The position numbers and the translations under genes are program-made. DNA of 32,941 bases from Anaerolineae bacterium (GTDB lineage Bacteria > Chloroflexota > Anaerolineae > Aggregatilineales > UBA3940), in assembly GCA_016927375.1 (NCBI GenBank), contig JAFGMS010000021.1, forward strand, positions 1-32,941. The letters are read 5' to 3'. A model generated the notes under the pieces. The model had not been told where the DNA came from and made no database searches. It saw only the letters and a list, made by a program, of their open reading frames with translations. Position 1 is the stretch's first letter. Every line of letters starts with the position of its first letter. This document shows positions 15,966-32,218 of the stretch, one piece after another.

Positions 15966-15994
15966 TTGGAGTCTAGGTATAGATGTGCTATAAC
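15966..15994 (+). promoter_or_regulatory. Possible promoter of the kinase gene
   Basis: TTGGAG (15966-15971), 17-bp spacer, TATAAC (15989-15994); start near 16001, about 30 nt before the ATG. It lies back to back with the divergent promoter. Confidence 0.4.
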
Positions 15995-16030
15995 CGAAGT
16001 GATGTTGTAGAGAGTATTGGAGAGTATCGA

Positions 16031-18043
16031 ATGGATGAGACGGACGCGCTTATTGGTTCTTCTCTTGGCAAGTACCATGTCGTTGAGATGTTGGGCAAGG
16101 GAGGGATGGCAACGGTTTACAAAGCTACTCACGTGGCCATCAACCGTACTGTTGCGATCAAGGTACTTCCGAGAGCGATGCTGCATGATGACACCTTTAT
16201 GCAGCGTTTCCAGCGTGAAGCTGAAGTCATTGCGAAGTTAGAGCATTTCCATATATTGCCCATCTATGATTATGGGGAATATGATGGGATGCCCTATATC
16301 GTGATGCGCTTTCTTGAGGGAGGCTCACTCCAAGAGCTCATCCGGGAGGGACCACTTTCGTGGGGGCAAATCGTAGGTGTTGTCTCGCAGGTGGCCGGTG
16401 CACTGGATTATGCTCACTCTCGGAGTGTGATTCATCGTGATATCAAGCCCAGCAATGTCATGCTGGATGATCAGGGCAATGCCTATCTGACCGATTTTGG
16501 GATCGCTAAGATGACTGAAGGCACCTCTCAGTTGACAGGTAGCGGCATTGTCGGCACGCCCGCCTATATGGCTCCCGAGCAATCGAACCCCGGACCGTCG
16601 ACCCCGGCTGTGGACATCTATGCCTTGGGCGTGACTGTTTTCGAGATGATCACCGGGCAGGTGCCCTTTGTTGCCGATACACCGATCGCCCAGATACTGA
16701 TGCATATTCAGAATCCTGTGCCGTCACTGCGTGATTATAATCCCGATATTCCCGACGAAGTAGACGAAGTTCTTCATCATGCTATGGAGAAGAAGCCGGA
16801 GGATCGCTATCACACAGCCGGAGAGCTGGCACAAGGGCTCGAGGCTGCCGTCAAGGCTGCCGGTGGCTGGAGCTGGTCATCCAAGACGGTAGTCCATTCT
16901 GTCCAGACCTTGCAGGCGGCAGTGTCGCCGAGAGCTGATGCGGCTACGGGCGAGGTGTCAGCCGGTGTAGGTGTGGCTTCTGTGAAACCGGCGCGCTCCA
17001 AATCCTTTCTCTCGAATCGGGCCTTGCTGTGGGCTGGGGTGGGGGGGGTTGGAATAGTGCTTGTAGTGGCAGCCATCGTGGTAGTGAGCCTTTTGGGAAG
17101 AGGTCTTGGTGGTCCTGACGTAGTGGCAGATCAAACAGCGACGGCTGACCAGGTCGCAATAGCTGACATTCCGGAGACTCTACCTGCCGCTGCGGCCACC
17201 GACATGGTGGAACCTACCTCTGATGTGATTGCTGTGACCGATAGTCAGGTGACAACGCCTCCGGAGCTCCCTACAACGACTCTTGTCCCAACTGATTTCC
17301 CGACTACGACGACATTACGCGGGGTTCCCATGATGTTGATCCCTGCCGGTTCGTCTATCATGGGCAGCGATACCGGCTACCCGCGTGAGCGTCCTGCTCA
17401 TGAAATCTATCTGGATGCTTATTACATCGATACAACAGAGGTCACCAATCTGTACTATATCGCCTGTGTTGATGAGGGTGCTTGTAAAGAGCCGCTGGAC
17501 GATAATTCGGTCAGCATTTACCGTTACTATGGAACGGAGCCCTATCACGACTATCCGGTTATCAACATTTCCTGGTATCAGGCTTATGATTACTGTCAGT
17601 GGCGGGGAGGCCATCTGCCCACTGAAGCTCAGTGGGAGAAAGCGGCTGGTTGGGACGAGGCCAATAACAAGCACCGGCTGTTTCCCTGGGACTCGGAATT
17701 GAAGAATAGCAGTTACCTGAATTTCGGCAGCGAGATAGGTGATCCTGTTGCAGTAGGTACCTACACAAAGGGGATGAGTGCCTACGGGTTGTATGAGATG
17801 GCAGGCAATGTGGCAGAGTGGGTTAATGACTGGTATCAAGATAATTTTTACGAGCTGTCTCCCAGGGAGAACCCGGTTGGCCCTGCTGAGGGGCAGTATA
17901 AAATCACACGGGGTGGCAGTTACGATGATCCTGGGGCACAGTTGACGACTACCTTCCGGCAGGCCGTTGGCCCGGCTACTACTGCTGATACGATAGGCTT
18001 CCGCTGTGCGTGGACACCAGCGGGAGATCCGACTGCTGAATAA
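16031..18043 (+). CDS. Receptor-like Ser/Thr kinase with SUMF1-like outer domain
   Basis: A 670-aa one-pass membrane kinase. The cytoplasmic Hanks-type kinase domain (about 13-275) has the P-loop GKGGMATV (22-29), VAIK with Lys44, HRDIKPSN (135-142), DFG (155-157) and APE (181-183), so it should be active. A linker leads to the membrane helix (331-356), then a Thr/Pro-rich stalk and a formylglycine-generating-enzyme-like (SUMF1/C-lectin-like) domain (about 430-665): MMLIPAGSSIMGSD, HLPTEAQWEKAAG, YEMAGNVAEWVNDWY, RGGSYDD, GFRCA. The cysteines that catalyse formylglycine formation are not at the expected RGGSY position, so it is probably a ligand- or glycan-binding sensor. ATG 16031 has GGAGAG 6 bp upstream. 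The following two genes encode wall/sugar-active-looking proteins. Confidence 0.92.
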   Translation: MDETDALIGSSLGKYHVVEMLGKGGMATVYKATHVAINRTVAIKVLPRAMLHDDTFMQRFQREAEVIAKLEHFHILPIYDYGEYDGMPYIVMRFLEGGSLQELIREGPLSWGQIVGVVSQVAGALDYAHSRSVIHRDIKPSNVMLDDQGNAYLTDFGIAKMTEGTSQLTGSGIVGTPAYMAPEQSNPGPSTPAVDIYALGVTVFEMITGQVPFVADTPIAQILMHIQNPVPSLRDYNPDIPDEVDEVLHHAMEKKPEDRYHTAGELAQGLEAAVKAAGGWSWSSKTVVHSVQTLQAAVSPRADAATGEVSAGVGVASVKPARSKSFLSNRALLWAGVGGVGIVLVVAAIVVVSLLGRGLGGPDVVADQTATADQVAIADIPETLPAAAATDMVEPTSDVIAVTDSQVTTPPELPTTTLVPTDFPTTTTLRGVPMMLIPAGSSIMGSDTGYPRERPAHEIYLDAYYIDTTEVTNLYYIACVDEGACKEPLDDNSVSIYRYYGTEPYHDYPVINISWYQAYDYCQWRGGHLPTEAQWEKAAGWDEANNKHRLFPWDSELKNSSYLNFGSEIGDPVAVGTYTKGMSAYGLYEMAGNVAEWVNDWYQDNFYELSPRENPVGPAEGQYKITRGGSYDDPGAQLTTTFRQAVGPATTADTIGFRCAWTPAGDPTAE

Positions 18044-24134: not shown

Positions 24135-25139
24135 TTATGTGGTATCTTGCTCGGTGTAGAAATCCTCGAGCTCCTCGAATTCGTGTTCTGCCTCGCTATC
24201 TAAGGGTACAACCAGCCCAAAGTTTCCCAATGAGAGTGCGGTCATATTTATTGCGTCTTCTATGGCTTCGGCCAGATATTCGTCGGTTTCGCTGTCGGCC
24301 AGGTCAAACAGTGCGCTCTGAGCATCATCTCCACCGATCTCACCCAGCGACCATATAGCAATCTCCTTGATCTCGCGATCTTGGGAGTGCGCAAAGCGGA
24401 TAAGCTGGGGGATGGCCTCTCTGAGACCGACTTCGCCAGCCGCACGGGCGGCTTCAAAGCGGAGTTCTGGTTCTTCGCTGCTCAGTGCATCGCGTATATG
24501 AGAGATCCATTGAGAATCACTGTTACGACCCATTGCAAACAGAGCGCTGGCCTGCATTTTGATGTCGGTATGCTCGGCTGCGGACTCAATGAGAGGCATG
24601 ACTTCCTTTCGGCTTGAATAAGAGATACTTTCAATCGCCCGACGTCGCACCTCTAGTTCTTCATTCTCCCGGTGACATATCTGCAGCAGTGCTTCTTCTG
24701 CCTCTTTGGCAACAGCTTGCTCCAATTCTTCGAGCTCACCAAGGAGGACAAAACGTCCCAGTGCCGTGGCTGCGGATGCTCTTACCTTGACGTCTGGGTC
24801 GCTCTGGAGTAGGGCGGTGAACCTTCGCATGACACCGGGATGGTCATTTTCCCAGAGTGCTTCTATAGCATGCCGGCGCACCTGAGCGTCATCATCTGTC
24901 AGAGCAAAAAGTGCGACCTCCGAGAAGTCTACATCGAAGTTGGTCTCACTGGTCTCTACAAGCCGCGACATAAGGAGCCGCTTTCTTGCGATTGGTACTG
25001 TCGGCCAGACGGCCCGGAACGCGTCTAGCTCAGCAGGCGCAGGCTCCGACAGCCAGTAGATCAAGGCAGCTCTTAGGGGAGCTTCGGTATCCAGGAGACT
25101 GACCAGGAGCGGCTCAAATGAATCATCGCAGCTGGTCAT
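24135..25139 (-). CDS. HEAT-repeat protein
   Basis: A 334-aa, acidic protein made of about eight HEAT-like helical repeats, with units such as DDDAQVRRHAIEALWEN, DPDVKVRASAATALGRF and EPELRFEAARAAGEVG. These folds serve as protein-binding scaffolds or, in the PBS-lyase-like subgroup, as chromophore handlers; nothing here suggests phycobiliproteins. The C-terminal tail is very acidic. No signal peptide, so cytoplasmic. Its ATG overlaps the stop of the site-2 protease gene (ATGA), suggesting coupled synthesis and perhaps a joint role. Confidence 0.85.
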   Translation of the reverse strand: MTSCDDSFEPLLVSLLDTEAPLRAALIYWLSEPAPAELDAFRAVWPTVPIARKRLLMSRLVETSETNFDVDFSEVALFALTDDDAQVRRHAIEALWENDHPGVMRRFTALLQSDPDVKVRASAATALGRFVLLGELEELEQAVAKEAEEALLQICHRENEELEVRRRAIESISYSSRKEVMPLIESAAEHTDIKMQASALFAMGRNSDSQWISHIRDALSSEEPELRFEAARAAGEVGLREAIPQLIRFAHSQDREIKEIAIWSLGEIGGDDAQSALFDLADSETDEYLAEAIEDAINMTALSLGNFGLVVPLDSEAEHEFEELEDFYTEQDTT

Positions 25140-26212
25140 GGAAGTATTAACGGATCAACTATATCTAGATACACAAGAACGAGCATGGCGACCAAAAGAA
25201 CTGCGAAACCAATAAAATGGACGATTGTCTCGCGTTGAGGATCAACACGGCGTCCCCGGATGCCTTCGAATAGCACAAACGCGATGCGCCCCCCGTCGAC
25301 TGCCGGGAGCGGCAGTAAGTTGGTGAAGGCAAGCGCTATGCTGATGTTGGCGGCTAACTCAAGGATTGGCCACGCAGCATGTTGGTCGATGGAGCTATCG
25401 AGTGCCTGACCGCCAATCTGGCTGATTCCGACGACGCTGACAGGGCGCAGTAATCGTGGTGATATCAACCCTTCTCTTACCCAGTTGATGGCTCTGGGAA
25501 TCATCAAGAAAAAGTTGACAAACTCTTCACCGGATCGCCGGACAGCTTCAAAGAAGCCGTAACGCTTAATTTCTAAACCAACCGGCTCAACCACTATGCC
25601 GGTTGGTCCCTGGTTTTCAGGCCAAGTTGTCCGTGGCGTGATCTCCAGCTCGAAAATGGACGAACCTCGTTCCACGGTTAAAGTGATCGGTTGCCCTATG
25701 TGGCTTGTGATATAACTGCTTAGATCTGGGTATTGCCGTATTTTTCGACCATCTGTTTGGAGGATGATGTCTCCGTCTTCCAGGCCGGCGCTCTCAGCAG
25801 GTGTGTCTGGCTCGACTTTTACTATACGTGCTCCGGGCATGATCTCCTGGGTACCGGTCATGAACATGATCATGAGCAGGATAAACGCGACAATGATATT
25901 TGCTCCAGGACCTGCGGCGAGAACGGCGAAGCGTACTCGTTTCGATGCGGCAGCCAAGCCTCCTTGAACCGATGGATCGTTCTCGCCGGCTGGGCGGTTG
26001 AATCCTCCCAGCGGCAGCCAGTTCAGGGTGAACTTGGTTCCTCCTTGCTCGAAGAGCGTAATTGCACGAGGGGGCAGCCCAATCCCGAATTCTTCAACTG
26101 TGACGCCTCCCCAGCGTGCTGCCAGGAAGTGCCCCAGCTCGTGAAAGAAGATCAGGGGGCCAAGGACAACAAAAAATGCTGCTATCGCTAAACCGGTATT
26201 CATGGAGATCAT
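25136..26212 (-). CDS. rseP: Site-2 protease, RseP/M50B family with PDZ domain
   Basis: An intramembrane zinc protease of about 358 aa. HELGH (24-28) in the first membrane helix is the zinc motif; NLLPLPAVDGGR near the C terminus supplies the third ligand, Asp. A single PDZ domain lies between (about 125-200, with PDTPAESAGLEDGDIIL). RseP-type enzymes cut membrane-bound anti-sigma factors and leftover signal peptides. The gene is 92 bp after the decarboxylase gene and overlaps the HEAT-repeat gene. In many bacteria rseP lies near dxr and isoprenoid genes; here it follows mevalonate genes instead. The start could also be ATG 26203. Confidence 0.93.
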   Translation of the reverse strand: MISMNTGLAIAAFFVVLGPLIFFHELGHFLAARWGGVTVEEFGIGLPPRAITLFEQGGTKFTLNWLPLGGFNRPAGENDPSVQGGLAAASKRVRFAVLAAGPGANIIVAFILLMIMFMTGTQEIMPGARIVKVEPDTPAESAGLEDGDIILQTDGRKIRQYPDLSSYITSHIGQPITLTVERGSSIFELEITPRTTWPENQGPTGIVVEPVGLEIKRYGFFEAVRRSGEEFVNFFLMIPRAINWVREGLISPRLLRPVSVVGISQIGGQALDSSIDQHAAWPILELAANISIALAFTNLLPLPAVDGGRIAFVLFEGIRGRRVDPQRETIVHFIGFAVLLVAMLVLVYLDIVDPLILP

Positions 26213-26304: not shown

Positions 26305-27297
26305 CTATGGGATGAGATGCTCATTGATAATCTGTGCAGGCCCTCCAACCGTGGTCGGCAGGATATCTTGTATACCTTCCAGCTCATTGAGCAACCCGAC
26401 TAGCTTGTCCTTCCAGCCGGTTGTGCTGATCACATGAACATTAGGACCGGCATCGATGGTGAATGCTGCGGGTATGCCGCCGGCGCGCCAGCTCTGGACA
26501 GCTTGCATGACGCGGATAGTAGCGGGCAGCCAGTAGAGCAGGGGAGGACTGGACGTCATTAGGATGGAATGCATCATCAGCGTGTCTTCCTCGATGATAG
26601 CGGCCAGGGGCTCGAAATCCTTCTGAAGAATGGCCGCGCGGCACAGGTCCAAGCGGCGAGGCGTATCGGCTATACGTGCAGCCTGGAGGGGCGAGGTATC
26701 GGCCAGTTGGTGCCCATCGGTTGAGCCGACGGCTTTGTGCTCTTTGTTCACGATGGTGACCAGATCGATCAGATCCCAGTGGCCGGCCGGTGCGATACTG
26801 GCTGCATATGAAGTTTGATGGTCAACCCCGGCATACCATTCCGTGTAGCCACCGGGCACCGAGCGGCAAGCCGAGCCGGAACCGAGGCGGGCCAATGCAG
26901 ACAGGCCGGCTTCGTCCGGATGGACATCGAGGGCGCTGCATGCCGCCGCCGTGAGCGCGGCAAAGGCTGATGCCGAAGAAGCAATGCCTGTGCCGGTGGG
27001 GAAATTGTTTTGTGAGATGACCAGGGCTCGTAGATCGACGTTTGCCAGATGGCGGACGTGATCGAGGTGGCGGCTGACGCGCCTGGTTTGCTCAACCGTT
27101 TGCTGTTCTCCATTTAGCATTAAGCGATCTTCAAGTATCTCGTCACCAAACATCACCGTCGTGATGGTTTCCAGCCCGGCCAGATTCATCGAGATAGAGC
27201 CGTTGACCGGCAGTCGCAGGTCGTTGTTTTTGTTTCCCCAATACTTGATGAAGGCAATATTCGGGTGAGCGCGAGCTGTCGCTTTCTTAGTCAACAT
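26305..27297 (-). CDS. Mevalonate-phosphate (or -diphosphate) decarboxylase
   Basis: GHMP-family decarboxylase, about 330 aa from ATG 27297. It matches the diphosphomevalonate decarboxylase family throughout: NIAFIKYWGN (13-22), NNFPTGTGIASSASAFAAL, GSGSACRSVPGGYTEW and TIDAGPN with the catalytic Asp. Asn22 replaces the Lys of KYWGK that touches substrate phosphates in the yeast enzyme. With isopentenyl phosphate kinase next door and no phosphomevalonate kinase, it more likely decarboxylates mevalonate-5-phosphate to isopentenyl phosphate, as shown for a Roseiflexus homologue. A track start at TTG 27345 would add 16 residues and sits on a palindrome; I prefer the ATG. Confidence 0.85.
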   Translation of the reverse strand: MLTKKATARAHPNIAFIKYWGNKNNDLRLPVNGSISMNLAGLETITTVMFGDEILEDRLMLNGEQQTVEQTRRVSRHLDHVRHLANVDLRALVISQNNFPTGTGIASSASAFAALTAAACSALDVHPDEAGLSALARLGSGSACRSVPGGYTEWYAGVDHQTSYAASIAPAGHWDLIDLVTIVNKEHKAVGSTDGHQLADTSPLQAARIADTPRRLDLCRAAILQKDFEPLAAIIEEDTLMMHSILMTSSPPLLYWLPATIRVMQAVQSWRAGGIPAAFTIDAGPNVHVISTTGWKDKLVGLLNELEGIQDILPTTVGGPAQIINEHLIP

Positions 27298-27343
27298 TTG
27301 ATAGAGCAATCGTATCTTCTCAATAATCCAGGGGATGTCCGCC

Positions 27344-27410
27344 AAACCTCCCGGAGGTTAGCAGACTGGCGCCTCAGAGAGAGTGACCACACTGAAACCT
27401 CCCGGAGGGT
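27344..27410. repeat. REP-like palindrome pair AAACCTCCCGGAGG
   Basis: AAACCTCCCGGAGG occurs at 27344-27357 and 27395-27408, 51 bp apart. The first copy lies in a perfect 15-bp inverted repeat, AACCTCC-C-GGAGGTT (27345-27359). Both lie in the 222-bp gap between the IPK and decarboxylase genes, where I see no gene. They look like dispersed REP-type elements and could form hairpins in the operon mRNA. Confidence 0.75.
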
Positions 27411-27519
27411 GATGCTCGGGCTCTCCTCATTTTTGAGAAGATATGAGCAATCCCTTTTGCAACTAATTTTAGCGGTTTCGACCATGCCGTGCGCAGTCTT
27501 TTTCTCTAACCTCAATTCG

Positions 27520-28308
27520 TCAGGCCGAAAGACGAGTCCCAAAAGGGATGTTCTCCTCTGTCAGGGCCCGGAACACGTTGCCCGGCTGCCGGCCGGAGAA
27601 AATATGTACTTTGAGGCCGCGGATTGTCTCACAGAGCGATAGCATCGAAGAGACTTTGGATGCCATACCACCGGTGACGTCGACCTGGTCCGAGCCACAC
27701 AAGGTATTCTGGAGATCAGCGAGGGTAGGGGGGGTAATTGATGGGATTACCTGTTTGTTGGCGTCGAGCACGCCCTCATAGTCTCCAGCAATCAGGATAC
27801 GGTCCGGTGTGAGTTTTTCGGCCAGGTAGGCGAAGATCTCCTCGGTGCTGATGATCGTTCCGCCCAGGGCATCGTCGATGGCTACATCACCATAGACAAT
27901 CGGAACCAAACCGGCCGTCAGCGTGTGCTGGAGAGGAATGAGCGACATTTGGGTGATTTGACTTTTGTGACAGATGGCAGACGCCGAGGGCTGGATGCGC
28001 AGTACCGGTACGCCTGCTTCGTGTAGGCTCTCAACGAGCAGGTGATTGAGCCGCGAAGCAACGTAGGCTACTCGGGCAAATCCTTGCCAGGCCTCTTTGC
28101 CCTGAACACCTGTCCTCGTTCCGTATTGTCTGGCAGCCGTGTGACCAAAGCTCCCGCTCCCATGCCCAACGATGAGAGAGAGGTCGCGGCTTATCTGCAA
28201 GGCTGAGGCAATCTCGGCAGACAGCCGGGTGATCTCGTCGGTGCGGGCCTTCTCTACTCCTGACTTGTCGGTAATGAGCGAGCCGCCTAATTTCAAAAAG
28301 GTCAGCAT
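27520..28308 (-). CDS. Isopentenyl phosphate kinase
   Basis: An amino-acid-kinase-fold enzyme of 262 aa that phosphorylates isopentenyl phosphate to IPP with ATP. FLKLGGSLITDK (4-15) is the N-terminal nucleotide motif; GHGSGSFGH (48-56) carries the catalytic His56 that marks IPK within the family; GDVAIDDALGGTIISTEE and DVTGGMASK follow as in archaeal IPKs. Best known in archaea, plants and some Chloroflexota. It starts 12 bp after the mevalonate kinase stop, with AAGG upstream. Its presence in place of phosphomevalonate kinase decides the pathway assignment. Confidence 0.93.
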   Translation of the reverse strand: MLTFLKLGGSLITDKSGVEKARTDEITRLSAEIASALQISRDLSLIVGHGSGSFGHTAARQYGTRTGVQGKEAWQGFARVAYVASRLNHLLVESLHEAGVPVLRIQPSASAICHKSQITQMSLIPLQHTLTAGLVPIVYGDVAIDDALGGTIISTEEIFAYLAEKLTPDRILIAGDYEGVLDANKQVIPSITPPTLADLQNTLCGSDQVDVTGGMASKVSSMLSLCETIRGLKVHIFSGRQPGNVFRALTEENIPFGTRLSA

Positions 28309-28320
28309 ATGTTTTTCGCC

Positions 28321-29250
28321 TTATTGGACGATGGTGTGGATGGTTCGGATGGCGCCGGTTTGCTTTAGGGCTTTTTCGATTGGCCCGGCGGACTCTGGAG
28401 CTACCAGTGCGATCATGTTGCCGCCAAGTCCGCCGCCGGACAGTTTGGCGCCTTGTGCCCCCGCCTTCTCTGCTGCATCGATGAGCCTTTCCAGCGCGTT
28501 GCACGAGACACCGATCTGCCCCAGCAGCGATTGGTTGCGAGTCATGAGAGGCCCGAGCCGGCCTAAATTCCCCTCTTCAATGGCTTGCCGTGCCTGCTCG
28601 GCAATCTGCCCGATCTCGGCAAACAGAGCATCGTACTTCTCTCGATCCCTCTCCCAACGCTCTCTCACGCCGCCCACGGCGACGTGGGTTGGGCTGGTGA
28701 CACCTGTGTCAGCGATGATCATGTGAAAAGCTCGCCCAACCCGGAGGGGTTCAGGAGGCGTGCCGCGCACGAAATAAACGGGCCGGCCGTAGCAGACAAC
28801 CGTATTATCTATGCCGCTGGGAGTGCCGTGGTGCAGCTTCTCGATCTCGTATACCAGGGTGGATAGCTCAGCTTGATTGAGTGGGCTGCCCAGGTAGCCT
28901 GAGAGCGCCCTGGCCAGGGCGGCGGAAACAGCCGCTCCACTGCCTAATCCTGCCGCAATGGGGATGGTCGATTGGATGGTGATGAGCGCGTCGGGTTCTG
29001 GCTTCTGGAGCTTTTCCAAAACCAGTCGGGCGGTCACTGCCAGCGCGTGAGTGGCTGCCTCAGCTATTGAAAGTCGCAGGTTAAGGTTGCTGGCCTCGAT
29101 GACCAGGCCGCTTCCAGATGCGCTATCGGCTACCGATGCTTTTGCCTGAACTTTGTGAACAGGTGCTGCCAATGCCGGCTGGCCATATACAACAGCGTGT
29201 TCGCCAAAAAGGATAATCTTGCCGGGCGCTGAGGCTGTGTGAGAGGTCAT
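28321..29250 (-). CDS. mvk: Mevalonate kinase
   Basis: A GHMP kinase of about 309 aa that phosphorylates mevalonate to mevalonate-5-phosphate. SAPGKIILFGEHAVVYGQPA is the family N terminus, AAGLGSGAAVSAALAR is the ATP loop, HHGTPSGIDN carries the catalytic Asp, and KLSGGGLGGNMIAL is GHMP motif 3. The track begins at a TTG (29295), but ATG 29250 (MTSHTASAPGK) gives the usual length. It lies between the UbiA-family gene (217-bp gap) and IPK (12-bp gap). No HMG-CoA synthase or reductase is in the window. Confidence 0.94.
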   Translation of the reverse strand: MTSHTASAPGKIILFGEHAVVYGQPALAAPVHKVQAKASVADSASGSGLVIEASNLNLRLSIAEAATHALAVTARLVLEKLQKPEPDALITIQSTIPIAAGLGSGAAVSAALARALSGYLGSPLNQAELSTLVYEIEKLHHGTPSGIDNTVVCYGRPVYFVRGTPPEPLRVGRAFHMIIADTGVTSPTHVAVGGVRERWERDREKYDALFAEIGQIAEQARQAIEEGNLGRLGPLMTRNQSLLGQIGVSCNALERLIDAAEKAGAQGAKLSGGGLGGNMIALVAPESAGPIEKALKQTGAIRTIHTIVQ

Positions 29251-29280
29251 TTTGCAGCTAATCAGCCTATCTAAAACACT

Positions 29281-29420
29281 GGGCGAAGCGAGCAAGCCTG
29301 CAAGTCGGCAAGTTTGCAGGTGAGCAGGAAGTCAAGTGGATGGATTTGTGGCGGTCGATGATCGTCCGGCGGCCCTGCAATGGCTATGAATTGATCACTG
29401 AGCACTGAGAGAGGAGAACC
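29281..29420. repeat. Low-complexity spacer between mvk and the UbiA-family gene
   Basis: The gap holds imperfect short repeats, including GCCTGCAAGTCGGCAAGTTTGC and CACTGAGCACTGAG, typical of decayed simple-sequence DNA. No gene or clear promoter is seen; 29250-29467 as a whole is 217 bp without coding signal. Confidence 0.5.
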
Positions 29421-29467
29421 CATATCATCACTATTCGGTAATTCAGCCAAATGCCAGAGTGGCACTA

Positions 29468-30346
29468 TCATTTCAAGACGTACAGGATGATGACAACAGC
29501 GATTCCCCACAGGCCCACCGCTGCCTGGAGAGGATGGTCGCGGAGGATGACCTCGTCAGGTGCACCACCTTCGCCTTTAACGTGGATCAAATAGAGATAG
29601 CGGAAGATGCCGTAGAGAACGAAGGGGATGGTGAGCATCATTGTATGATTGAGCGGTAGTCCTTCTGCGCTGAACGTGTATAGAGAGTAGGTCAGGATGG
29701 TTGTGGCGCTTACGATCACGATCATCTCGTCCAGCAGGACTATGCTGTATTGGTCGAGGATGGCTCGGTGATTGTTGGCGCCGCCTTGCAGTAGTACCAG
29801 CTCGTGGCGCCGCTTGCCGAAGCCCAGGAAGAGCGCCAGCGTTGTGGTGAAGATATACAGCCAGGGCGAGAAGCGCACGACGTCGACCAGCACAACGCCA
29901 CAGGCGACTCGCAGAACGTAGCCCGCCGCAACGACCATGACATCTATGATGACTAGGTGCTTGAGGTAGAATGAGTAACCCAGATTAAGTAACAGATAAC
30001 CAACGAGAACAAATCCATACAAAGGCTTTAGCAGAAAAGCCAGTGGAATCGTGAGCAGAGATAGCGCAACGGTTGCAATGATGGCTGTTGACCTGGAAAG
30101 CTGCCCGGAGGGTAGGGGGCGTAACCGCTTGGTGGGATGTGCCTTGTCGGCCTCGATGTCGGCAATGTCGTTGATCAGGTAAACGATGCTGCTTGCCAGG
30201 CACAACAGCCCGAACCCGGCCAGTGTGGCAAGCAGGTAAGGGATATCGTCCAATTTGCGGTCGAAGATCAGCGGAACAAAAACAAAACCGTTCTTGGTCC
30301 ACTGCTTGAGGCGCATGGTGCGCGCCAAGCCAAGTAGTTGTGACAT
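29468..30346 (-). CDS. UbiA-family prenyltransferase, DPPR-synthase-like
   Basis: About 292 aa with eight or nine membrane helices. The Asp-rich motif NDIADIEADKAHPTKRLRPLPSG and the second-loop segment YSFYLKHLVIIDVMVVAAGYVLR resemble decaprenyl-phosphate phosphoribosyltransferase, which moves 5-phosphoribosyl from PRPP to a polyprenyl phosphate for arabinose donor synthesis in mycobacteria. Other UbiA substrates cannot be excluded. The track start is TTG 30367; ATG 30346 has AGGA 10 bp upstream and avoids the palindrome. First gene of the minus-strand isoprenoid cluster, so it may use products of the pathway encoded behind it. Confidence 0.82.
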   Translation of the reverse strand: MSQLLGLARTMRLKQWTKNGFVFVPLIFDRKLDDIPYLLATLAGFGLLCLASSIVYLINDIADIEADKAHPTKRLRPLPSGQLSRSTAIIATVALSLLTIPLAFLLKPLYGFVLVGYLLLNLGYSFYLKHLVIIDVMVVAAGYVLRVACGVVLVDVVRFSPWLYIFTTTLALFLGFGKRRHELVLLQGGANNHRAILDQYSIVLLDEMIVIVSATTILTYSLYTFSAEGLPLNHTMMLTIPFVLYGIFRYLYLIHVKGEGGAPDEVILRDHPLQAAVGLWGIAVVIILYVLK

Positions 30347-30360
30347 GAGATGTTTTCCTG

Positions 30361-30376
30361 TGGTCAAATTTGACCA
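30361..30376. promoter_or_regulatory. Operator-like 16-bp perfect palindrome
   Basis: TGGTCAAATTTGACCA is a perfect 16-bp palindrome just downstream of the minus-strand -10 box (30379-30384), so it would cover the transcription start of the isoprenoid cluster. This position is typical of a repressor site. Confidence 0.6.
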
Positions 30377-30611: not shown

Positions 30612-31409
30612 ATGAAACACAAAAAGGTGCGTCTGGATGTCCTGTTGTTTGATCGTGGTCTCGTCGAATCTCGCGAGCTGGGCCGCCGGTTGATCATGGC
30701 CGGTGAGGTGCTGGTTGATGATCATCCAATGACCAAACCGGGTGTGAGTGTCCGCTCAGACGTCGCTATTCGAGTAAAGCAGAAGCCGCGCTTTGTCAGC
30801 CGAGGTGGGGACAAGCTGGTGGCTGCTTTGGAGCAGTTCGAAATCACGCTTGTGGGTTGGGTGTGTGCCGATGTTGGCGCCTCCACAGGCGGCTTCACCG
30901 ACTGCCTGCTTCAGGCAGGGGCCGACAGGGTCTACGCTATCGATGTTGGTTATGGACAGCTCGCCTGGACGCTCCGCGGAGATGCGCGAGTGGTGGTGAT
31001 GGAACGCACCAATGCTCGCTATCTCGAAAGCCTGCCTGAGCAGGTTGACTTTGCGTGCATCGATGCCTCGTTTATATCGCTTGGGCTCCTGCTGCCGGTT
31101 GTCCGGAACTGGCTTACTCCACATGGGCAGGTTGTGGCGCTGGTCAAGCCCCAATTCGAGGCCGGCAGGGATAAGGTCGGCAAAGGCGGCGTGGTGCGTG
31201 ACCCTGCTATCCATAGCGAGGTTCTATTGAACATCGCCGAAACTGCCCGGCAGCAAGATTTCGTCGTGTTGGGGGTTATACATTCGCCTCTGCGCGGGCC
31301 GTCGGGCAATATCGAGTTCCTGATGTGGCTAGGTGTTTCATCATCTGCGCCCAGCAAGACCGAACTGTGGATAGAGGAGGCGGTTCGCACTGCTCATGAA
31401 GAGCCGTAA
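30612..31409 (+). CDS. tlyA: TlyA-family rRNA 2'-O-methyltransferase
   Basis: A 265-aa protein with an N-terminal S4 RNA-binding domain (about 5-65, RLDVLLFDRGLVESRELGRR) and an FtsJ-like SAM domain: DVGASTGGFTDCLLQAGA, YAIDVGYGQLAWTLR, DASFISLGLLLP, LVKPQFEAGRDKVGKGGVV and GPSGNIEF. TlyA methylates ribose 2'-OH of cytidines in 23S rRNA and, in the long type, 16S rRNA, where loss gives capreomycin resistance in mycobacteria. Length is close to the mycobacterial long type. Older annotations call it hemolysin A, which is misleading. Divergent from the prenyltransferase gene. Confidence 0.94.
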   Translation: MKHKKVRLDVLLFDRGLVESRELGRRLIMAGEVLVDDHPMTKPGVSVRSDVAIRVKQKPRFVSRGGDKLVAALEQFEITLVGWVCADVGASTGGFTDCLLQAGADRVYAIDVGYGQLAWTLRGDARVVVMERTNARYLESLPEQVDFACIDASFISLGLLLPVVRNWLTPHGQVVALVKPQFEAGRDKVGKGGVVRDPAIHSEVLLNIAETARQQDFVVLGVIHSPLRGPSGNIEFLMWLGVSSSAPSKTELWIEEAVRTAHEEP

Positions 31410-31435: not shown

Positions 31436-32218
31436 TCATTGGGCTGAGTATATCGAGAGCCACGTGAAAAGGACCGACATGGGTTCTCCTGTGGTCTCTG
31501 CATAAGGGCCAAAATCCCCTGCTGGCGAACTGCTCACGTCGACCCTGGCGATCTGCTTTTTGTCGACATACAGGGTCAGCTTATTGTTGATTGCACGGAC
31601 GCTCAGGGTATGTTCTCCTGAAGATGGTGTGATCTCTTCCTGCAGTGTACCTTCCGCCAGCATTGTCACCGATAATGGGCCGACGCGCTCCAGCAGGGAG
31701 TACCGGCCGCTGCACCAGATTACGAAGAAGCGAAATGATGTGTCACTTTTGTAGTGAAAGACCATGCCGTAGGCGCCACTTCCTTCCGGGCACTGAATAG
31801 GATTGGCCGTGACCTCGGCAAAGAAGTCAGACTGCCGGGCGCGCGTGGTGTAGGCGTAGAGAGCCCATGGCTGGCTGATATCGATCTGGTAACCGTCCGA
31901 CTTTGGTGTCCCGGAAGCCTTGTCTCCTTCCATGGCCACCCAGCCCTGCCGGAAGCGTGTTTCGTAAAGCAGCGCACCGTGGCTTGGGGGCTGCTCTACG
32001 GTGGCTTCCTCAAGTGGCGCGGCGGTCGTTGGCGGGGGTGAGGGTATCGCGGTGTGAGTGGCTGTTGGGTGCTCGGTGGATGTCTCTGTTTCTGGGTGTG
32101 TTGGTGGTGGGACGGTCGTGGGAGGGGAGGTTGCCGTCTCAGCCGTCTTTGCGGCTGGCATATTGCAGGCCAATGTGAGCAACACCAGGGCGATCAAGAT
32201 ACTGGTATGATATTTCAT
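31436..32218 (-). CDS. Lipoprotein with LamG/DUF1080-like domain
   Basis: A 260-aa lipoprotein: signal peptide ending LLTLAC (Cys18), a long Thr/Pro/Ser-rich disordered stretch (about 20-80), then a beta-sandwich-like domain (about 83-258) with ALLYETRFRQGW, YGMVFHYKSDTSFRFFVIW and HTLSVRAINNKLTLYVDKKQIARV. That pattern is seen in concanavalin-like (LamG or 3-keto-disaccharide hydrolase-type) domains, which often bind glycans. The start has GGGGAG 7 bp upstream. It converges with tlyA, 26 bp apart. Ligand and function unknown. Confidence 0.75.
   Translation of the reverse strand: MKYHTSILIALVLLTLACNMPAAKTAETATSPPTTVPPPTHPETETSTEHPTATHTAIPSPPPTTAAPLEEATVEQPPSHGALLYETRFRQGWVAMEGDKASGTPKSDGYQIDISQPWALYAYTTRARQSDFFAEVTANPIQCPEGSGAYGMVFHYKSDTSFRFFVIWCSGRYSLLERVGPLSVTMLAEGTLQEEITPSSGEHTLSVRAINNKLTLYVDKKQIARVDVSSSPAGDFGPYAETTGEPMSVLFTWLSIYSAQ

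Follow-up and report, generated by a model that had tools for sequence, protein, structure and literature searches.

Gene organization of the mevalonate locus

The window analyzed here is a stretch of 32,941 nucleotides from an Anaerolineae genome. Four consecutive genes on its minus strand encode, in this order, a UbiA-family enzyme, mevalonate kinase (MVK), isopentenyl phosphate kinase (IPK), and a decarboxylase; next comes the gene of an RseP-like protease. The features are listed below from high to low coordinates.

30612..31409, plus strand: TlyA-family rRNA methyltransferase, divergent upstream gene, locus marker in relatives (TIGR00478 above cut-off; synteny)
29468..30346, minus strand: UbiA-family membrane enzyme (ATG at 30346; reading frame opens with TTG at 30367; NF008977, PF01040, synteny)
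28321..29250, minus strand: MVK (start taken as ATG at 29250; reading frame opens with TTG at 29295; TIGR00549, motif, tree)
27520..28308, minus strand: IPK (NF040647; best PDB match; 11 invariant residues)
28143-28141: codon of the catalytic His56 of IPK
26305..27297, minus strand: predicted mevalonate-5-phosphate decarboxylase (MPD type; start taken as ATG at 27297; reading frame opens with TTG at 27345)
27232..27234, minus strand: codon AAC, Asn at the position of Lys21 in diphosphomevalonate decarboxylase (MDD) (Asn22 from the ATG, Asn38 from the TTG)
26710..26712, minus strand: codon CAC, His at the other site altered in the 6n0z variant (His to Met)
26452..26454, minus strand: codon GAT, catalytic Asp of the decarboxylase (DAGPN motif)
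25136..26212, minus strand: RseP-like M50 protease, downstream gene, locus marker in relatives (TIGR00054 above cut-off; synteny)

Six genomes of the window's family retained the order UbiA-MVK-IPK-MPD-RseP-HEAT over the extent of their contigs; in one of the six, the locus is split over two contigs, and in others it ends at a contig edge. This conservation argues that the arrangement is not due to chance, and the genes are presumably co-transcribed. The gap between the IPK and decarboxylase genes contains two near-palindromic CCTCCGGGAGG repeats at 27347-27357 and 27398-27408, 51 bases apart, which are possibly regulatory.

The first-pass annotation had described MVK, IPK, and a decarboxylase sitting together without phosphomevalonate kinase (PMK) in the cluster, and both the gene positions and family matches above curated cut-offs agreed with this description. 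The MVK scored 260.9 bits against TIGR00549 (cut-off, 163.05) and contained the catalytic Glu motif EIEKLHHGTPSGIDN (also given as EKLHHGTPSGIDN). The IPK scored 189.6 bits against NF040647 (cut-off, 120), with Methanocaldococcus jannaschii IPK as its best PDB match. Its catalytic residue is the final His of GHGSGSFGH, which is His56 in the window enzyme and His60 in M. jannaschii. This His had been pointed out previously and was found together with the ten other invariant residues listed in PMC3857490 (11/11). The membrane enzyme, previously annotated as a polyprenyl-using UbiA protein at the head of the cluster, was matched best by decaprenyl-phosphate phosphoribosyltransferase models (262.7 bits against NF008977; cut-off, 234), and synteny identified it as a conserved neighbor of MVK-IPK. 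That it heads an operon and uses a polyprenyl substrate appears plausible from this placement.

The decarboxylase is of the Anaerolinea thermophila type

The decarboxylase scored 259.6 bits against TIGR01240 (cut-off, 171.35), a model that carries the name of the diphosphate enzyme, diphosphomevalonate decarboxylase. Its best PDB match was the Anaerolinea thermophila MPD (6n0x, 382 bits; 6n0x/6n0y, Thomas et al. 2019, ACS Chem Biol), with 54% identity over nearly the full length. In the tree, the window enzyme fell in the same branch as the A. thermophila enzyme, apart from the MDDs, with support of 97/96. The window Asn aligned with Lys21 of Staphylococcus epidermidis MDD, and its earlier numbering as Asn22, in place of the KYWGK lysine, is correct if translation begins at the in-frame ATG (27297); counted from the TTG (27345), it is Asn38. 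The two Chloroflexota enzymes have in common this Asn, Arg27, and His212; in the window, MVK, IPK, and MPD are in addition adjacent. PDB entry 6n0z is a double variant of the A. thermophila enzyme, in which Lys replaces the Asn and Met the His. Both substitutions were presumably made to alter specificity, as the title of the 2019 paper suggests, and the window enzyme is wild type at both positions.

Roseiflexus castenholzii had been cited earlier as the precedent for this locus. Its MPD-IPK route does share the pathway logic of the window (MVK, MPD, IPK, and no PMK), but its active-site pattern differs, and the appropriate experimental precedent is the MPD of A. thermophila (6n0x). The phosphate-binding residues of the R. 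castenholzii enzyme are Tyr, Leu77, Arg83, Ala201, Ser203, and Thr255 (Dellas et al. 2013, PMC3857490), whereas the corresponding positions in the window are Tyr, Asn, Arg, Ser, Ser, and Ser, which departs from the Roseiflexus-type pattern (Leu, Arg, Ala, Ser, Thr; Table 4 of Dellas et al.). That pattern instead matched the KYHGL-type sequence L024, from a group approximately 31% identical. The haloarchaeal MPD-IPK pathway has the same reaction order and kinds of enzymes, but the window protein scored only 200.3 bits against the haloarchaeal MPD model NF040704, below its cut-off of 475. With the classical MVK-PMK-MDD pathway of Staphylococcus aureus and S. epidermidis, the window shares MVK and a homologous decarboxylase (41% identity to S. 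aureus); it differs in that no PMK was found in the window genome, Lys21 is replaced by Asn, and IPK is present.

Pathway gene content of the genome

The assembly around the window comprises 5.04 Mb in 547 contigs and is 87% complete. Whole-genome searches, which the first-pass annotation had proposed for PMK, HMG-CoA reductase, and MEP-pathway genes, returned one decarboxylase, one IPK above the cut-off, one MVK, and an HMG-CoA reductase (G000:C230). Neither DXR nor IspH was found in this 87%-complete genome, with both searches working in nine control genomes. A PMK elsewhere in the genome, which would have counted against the proposed route, was likewise not found within the limits set by 87% completeness: apart from the MVK itself (261 bits), no kinase of the MVK/PMK type scored above 72 bits. 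Since the assembly is incomplete, these absences are provisional. However, the congener (G151, 91% complete) had the same gene set, and the agreement across relatives makes it unlikely that the absences are accidental.

The MPD-IPK route, in which the monophosphate is decarboxylated first and the second phosphate is added last, is very probably the one used by this organism. Gene content, the A. thermophila-type residues, and the mutual exclusion with a PMK-like kinase described below all agree with this reading, which was also that of the first-pass annotation. MVK would form mevalonate-5-phosphate; the decarboxylase would phosphorylate its 3-hydroxyl and then decarboxylate it to isopentenyl phosphate; and a further phosphorylation, by IPK, would yield isopentenyl diphosphate (IPP). 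With Asn in place of MDD Lys21 and His at position 212, contact to a second phosphate would be lost and the monophosphate favored. IPP may then feed polyprenyl synthesis, with the neighboring UbiA enzyme as a plausible consumer. Substrate preference, flux, and the role of UbiA in this scheme are predicted from the genes and residues described above.

Under the classical pathway, the decarboxylase would instead use mevalonate-5-diphosphate made by a PMK encoded in the 13% of the genome missing from the assembly, with IPK only recycling isopentenyl phosphate, as it does in plants. The window decarboxylase indeed retains MDD Ser139, Ser141, and Ser192 and passes the diphosphomevalonate decarboxylase model, and the genome is incomplete. 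Even so, a PMK-like kinase was absent from the window genome, its congener, and the other Asn-type genomes of the order, and those genomes that do have a second kinase show an Arg- or Lys-type decarboxylase and lack IPK. The classical pathway is therefore considered highly improbable here. The MPD-IPK route is already known in Chloroflexota. The window thus adds one more well-supported example, from a lineage whose key enzyme is mislabeled by standard models.

Co-variation of the active-site residue, IPK, and a second kinase

Forty relatives of the same order were searched for the decarboxylase, IPK, TIGR01220, and TIGR00549, and each readable decarboxylase was scored for its residue at the Asn position. 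No decarboxylase was matched in four incomplete relatives (G155, G178, G179, and G183), and only decarboxylase pieces lacking a readable residue were obtained from G169 and G184. All 23 Asn-type genomes had IPK, in one case (G158) as a fragment adjoining the decarboxylase where the contig ends, and none had a second kinase. Twelve genomes with a readable decarboxylase had no IPK (G156, G160, G163, G165, G167, G171, G173, G176, G181, G186, G188, and G190). The residue in these was Arg in 10 and Lys in 2, and all 12, alone among the genomes with a readable decarboxylase, had a second strong MVK-family kinase (157 to 203 bits). The order thereby offers a natural experiment in which the type of pathway, the set of kinases, and one active-site residue vary in concert.

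Because the genomes are related, the counts of 12 and 0 versus 0 and 23 overstate the evidence, and the raw Fisher P value of 1e-9 was rejected as evidence for the same reason. On the MVK tree, there were three independent contrasts on well-supported branches and four on the best tree. All were in the expected direction, but three to four concordant contrasts are too few for significance.

A bifunctional decarboxylase could serve either route, with the residue at the Asn position (residue 38 from the TTG) only tuning preference and the co-variation mostly reflecting shared ancestry of the gene sets. An archaeal-genome paper that cites Thomas 2019 (PMC11052028) ascribes both activities to the Chloroflexota enzyme, so that specificity may be relaxed. 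The placement of the Arg/Lys and Asn types in separate branches, as well as the small number of contrasts, would also fit shared ancestry. Against this, the Lys21 position was the only column of the alignment at which all 40 Asn-type sequences had one and the same letter and none of the 12 Arg/Lys sequences had that letter, and Lys recurred in each of three newly found decarboxylases beside a second kinase (see below). On balance, bifunctionality with a tuning residue appears unlikely.

In a wider sample of the phylum, genomes whose residue here is Asn, Val, Gln, or Leu also had IPK, as did four Anaerolineaceae with Leu/Met. A third active-site type is represented by L052, L053, L059, and L090, from an Anaerolineaceae branch that includes Brevefilum: its two specificity positions are occupied by Leu and Met, and IPK is still present. 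One exception, L032 from genome G199, had an Asn-type decarboxylase, with neither IPK nor a TIGR01220 match found, possibly owing to incompleteness. In G162, the sole decarboxylase found (L140:1504-2553) retains the Asn, with Glu replacing the catalytic Asp and GSGS changed to GEGA; IPK and MVK are located on a contig other than that of the decarboxylase.

The second kinase is a candidate PMK

In the tree, the second kinase formed a branch of its own with support of 100/99, and the primary MVKs of the same genomes grouped with their own families. The MVK catalytic Glu motif is replaced in it by forms such as AVLDVQGGIGSGFDVAAATYGG, and a profile alignment with Methanosarcina mazei MVK placed a hydrophobic residue where the Glu would be. 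It scored higher than the window MVK against two PMK models, with 60 to 103 versus 32.5 bits for TIGR01220 and 53 to 76 versus 35 bits for NF040957, and still scored best as an MVK. A PMK assignment directly from TIGR01220 was rejected, as the cut-off was passed in no genome and the MVK score was higher. The kinase is considered a PMK candidate because it lacks the MVK catalytic Glu, usually lies beside the decarboxylase, and replaces IPK; from its sequence and context, it is probably a PMK. The paper that defined the MPD-IPK route described Chloroflexi as being without an obvious PMK. An MVK-related PMK now appears to be present in some Anaerolineae.

A class-wide search of 396 genomes for the second kinase yielded four new carriers (G282, G452, G390, and G518). 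The first three each had a decarboxylase adjoining the kinase, with Lys at the Asn position in 3/3; in G518, no decarboxylase was found near the kinase.

Proposed exchange of the pathway ending as a two-gene unit

The genome G156 is a member of the window's family (assembly 75% complete, 4% contamination), and its primary MVK grouped with that family in the tree. At its locus (L230), the genes for TlyA, UbiA, and MVK are followed by approximately 230 bases and then by RseP and HEAT, and no trace of IPK or MPD was detected in the MVK-RseP gap (L230 4700-4930). On another contig (L155), the same genome encodes the second kinase and a Lys-type decarboxylase side by side. The absence of IPK at this locus is therefore not an assembly gap, and IPK and MPD are missing jointly. 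This deletion, together with the prospective 3/3 result, is better evidence than the order-wide counts.

The genome G163 combines the second kinase and a Lys-type decarboxylase with an apparently decayed copy of an Asn-branch decarboxylase (L158:2853-3851), whose catalytic Asp is changed to Ala. Other active-site residues are also lost in this homologue, which is decayed or repurposed.

In the decarboxylase tree, the Lys types of families f1, f56, f60, and f90 formed a single branch, separate from the Asn types of f1 and f56, which suggests horizontal transfer of the kinase-decarboxylase pair. The deeper forks of this tree are not settled, and G452 lies on a long branch of its own. The KYHGL-type sequences were left out of the final tree, as their very long branch changed position. 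A simple Asn-to-Lys reversal within the Asn branch was not supported; the Arg and Lys types branch outside it.

A fairly likely reading of these data is that Anaerolineae exchange the endings of the mevalonate pathway as two-gene units. One unit would consist of IPK and the Asn-type decarboxylase, and the other of an MVK-derived PMK and a Lys- or Arg-type decarboxylase. The second unit would have spread between families by horizontal transfer; the resident IPK and decarboxylase genes would then have been deleted from their locus or have decayed, and MDD position 21 would act as a natural specificity switch. No earlier description of the paired exchange of a PMK-like kinase and a Lys/Arg decarboxylase was found in the literature searched, the coverage of which was partial, and its novelty is thus likely but not established. 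Pairs of close relatives make the proposed specificity switch, and how each route is gained and lost, directly testable; the comparison also provides enzyme parts for isoprenoid engineering.

Two other genes of the window were recorded. A lipoprotein-like protein without a Pfam match is encoded at 31436-32218 on the minus strand and lies beside tlyA in several genomes of the family. At 15983-18043 on the plus strand, a protein kinase domain is fused to a sulfatase-modifying-factor-like domain (PF00069 and PF03781).
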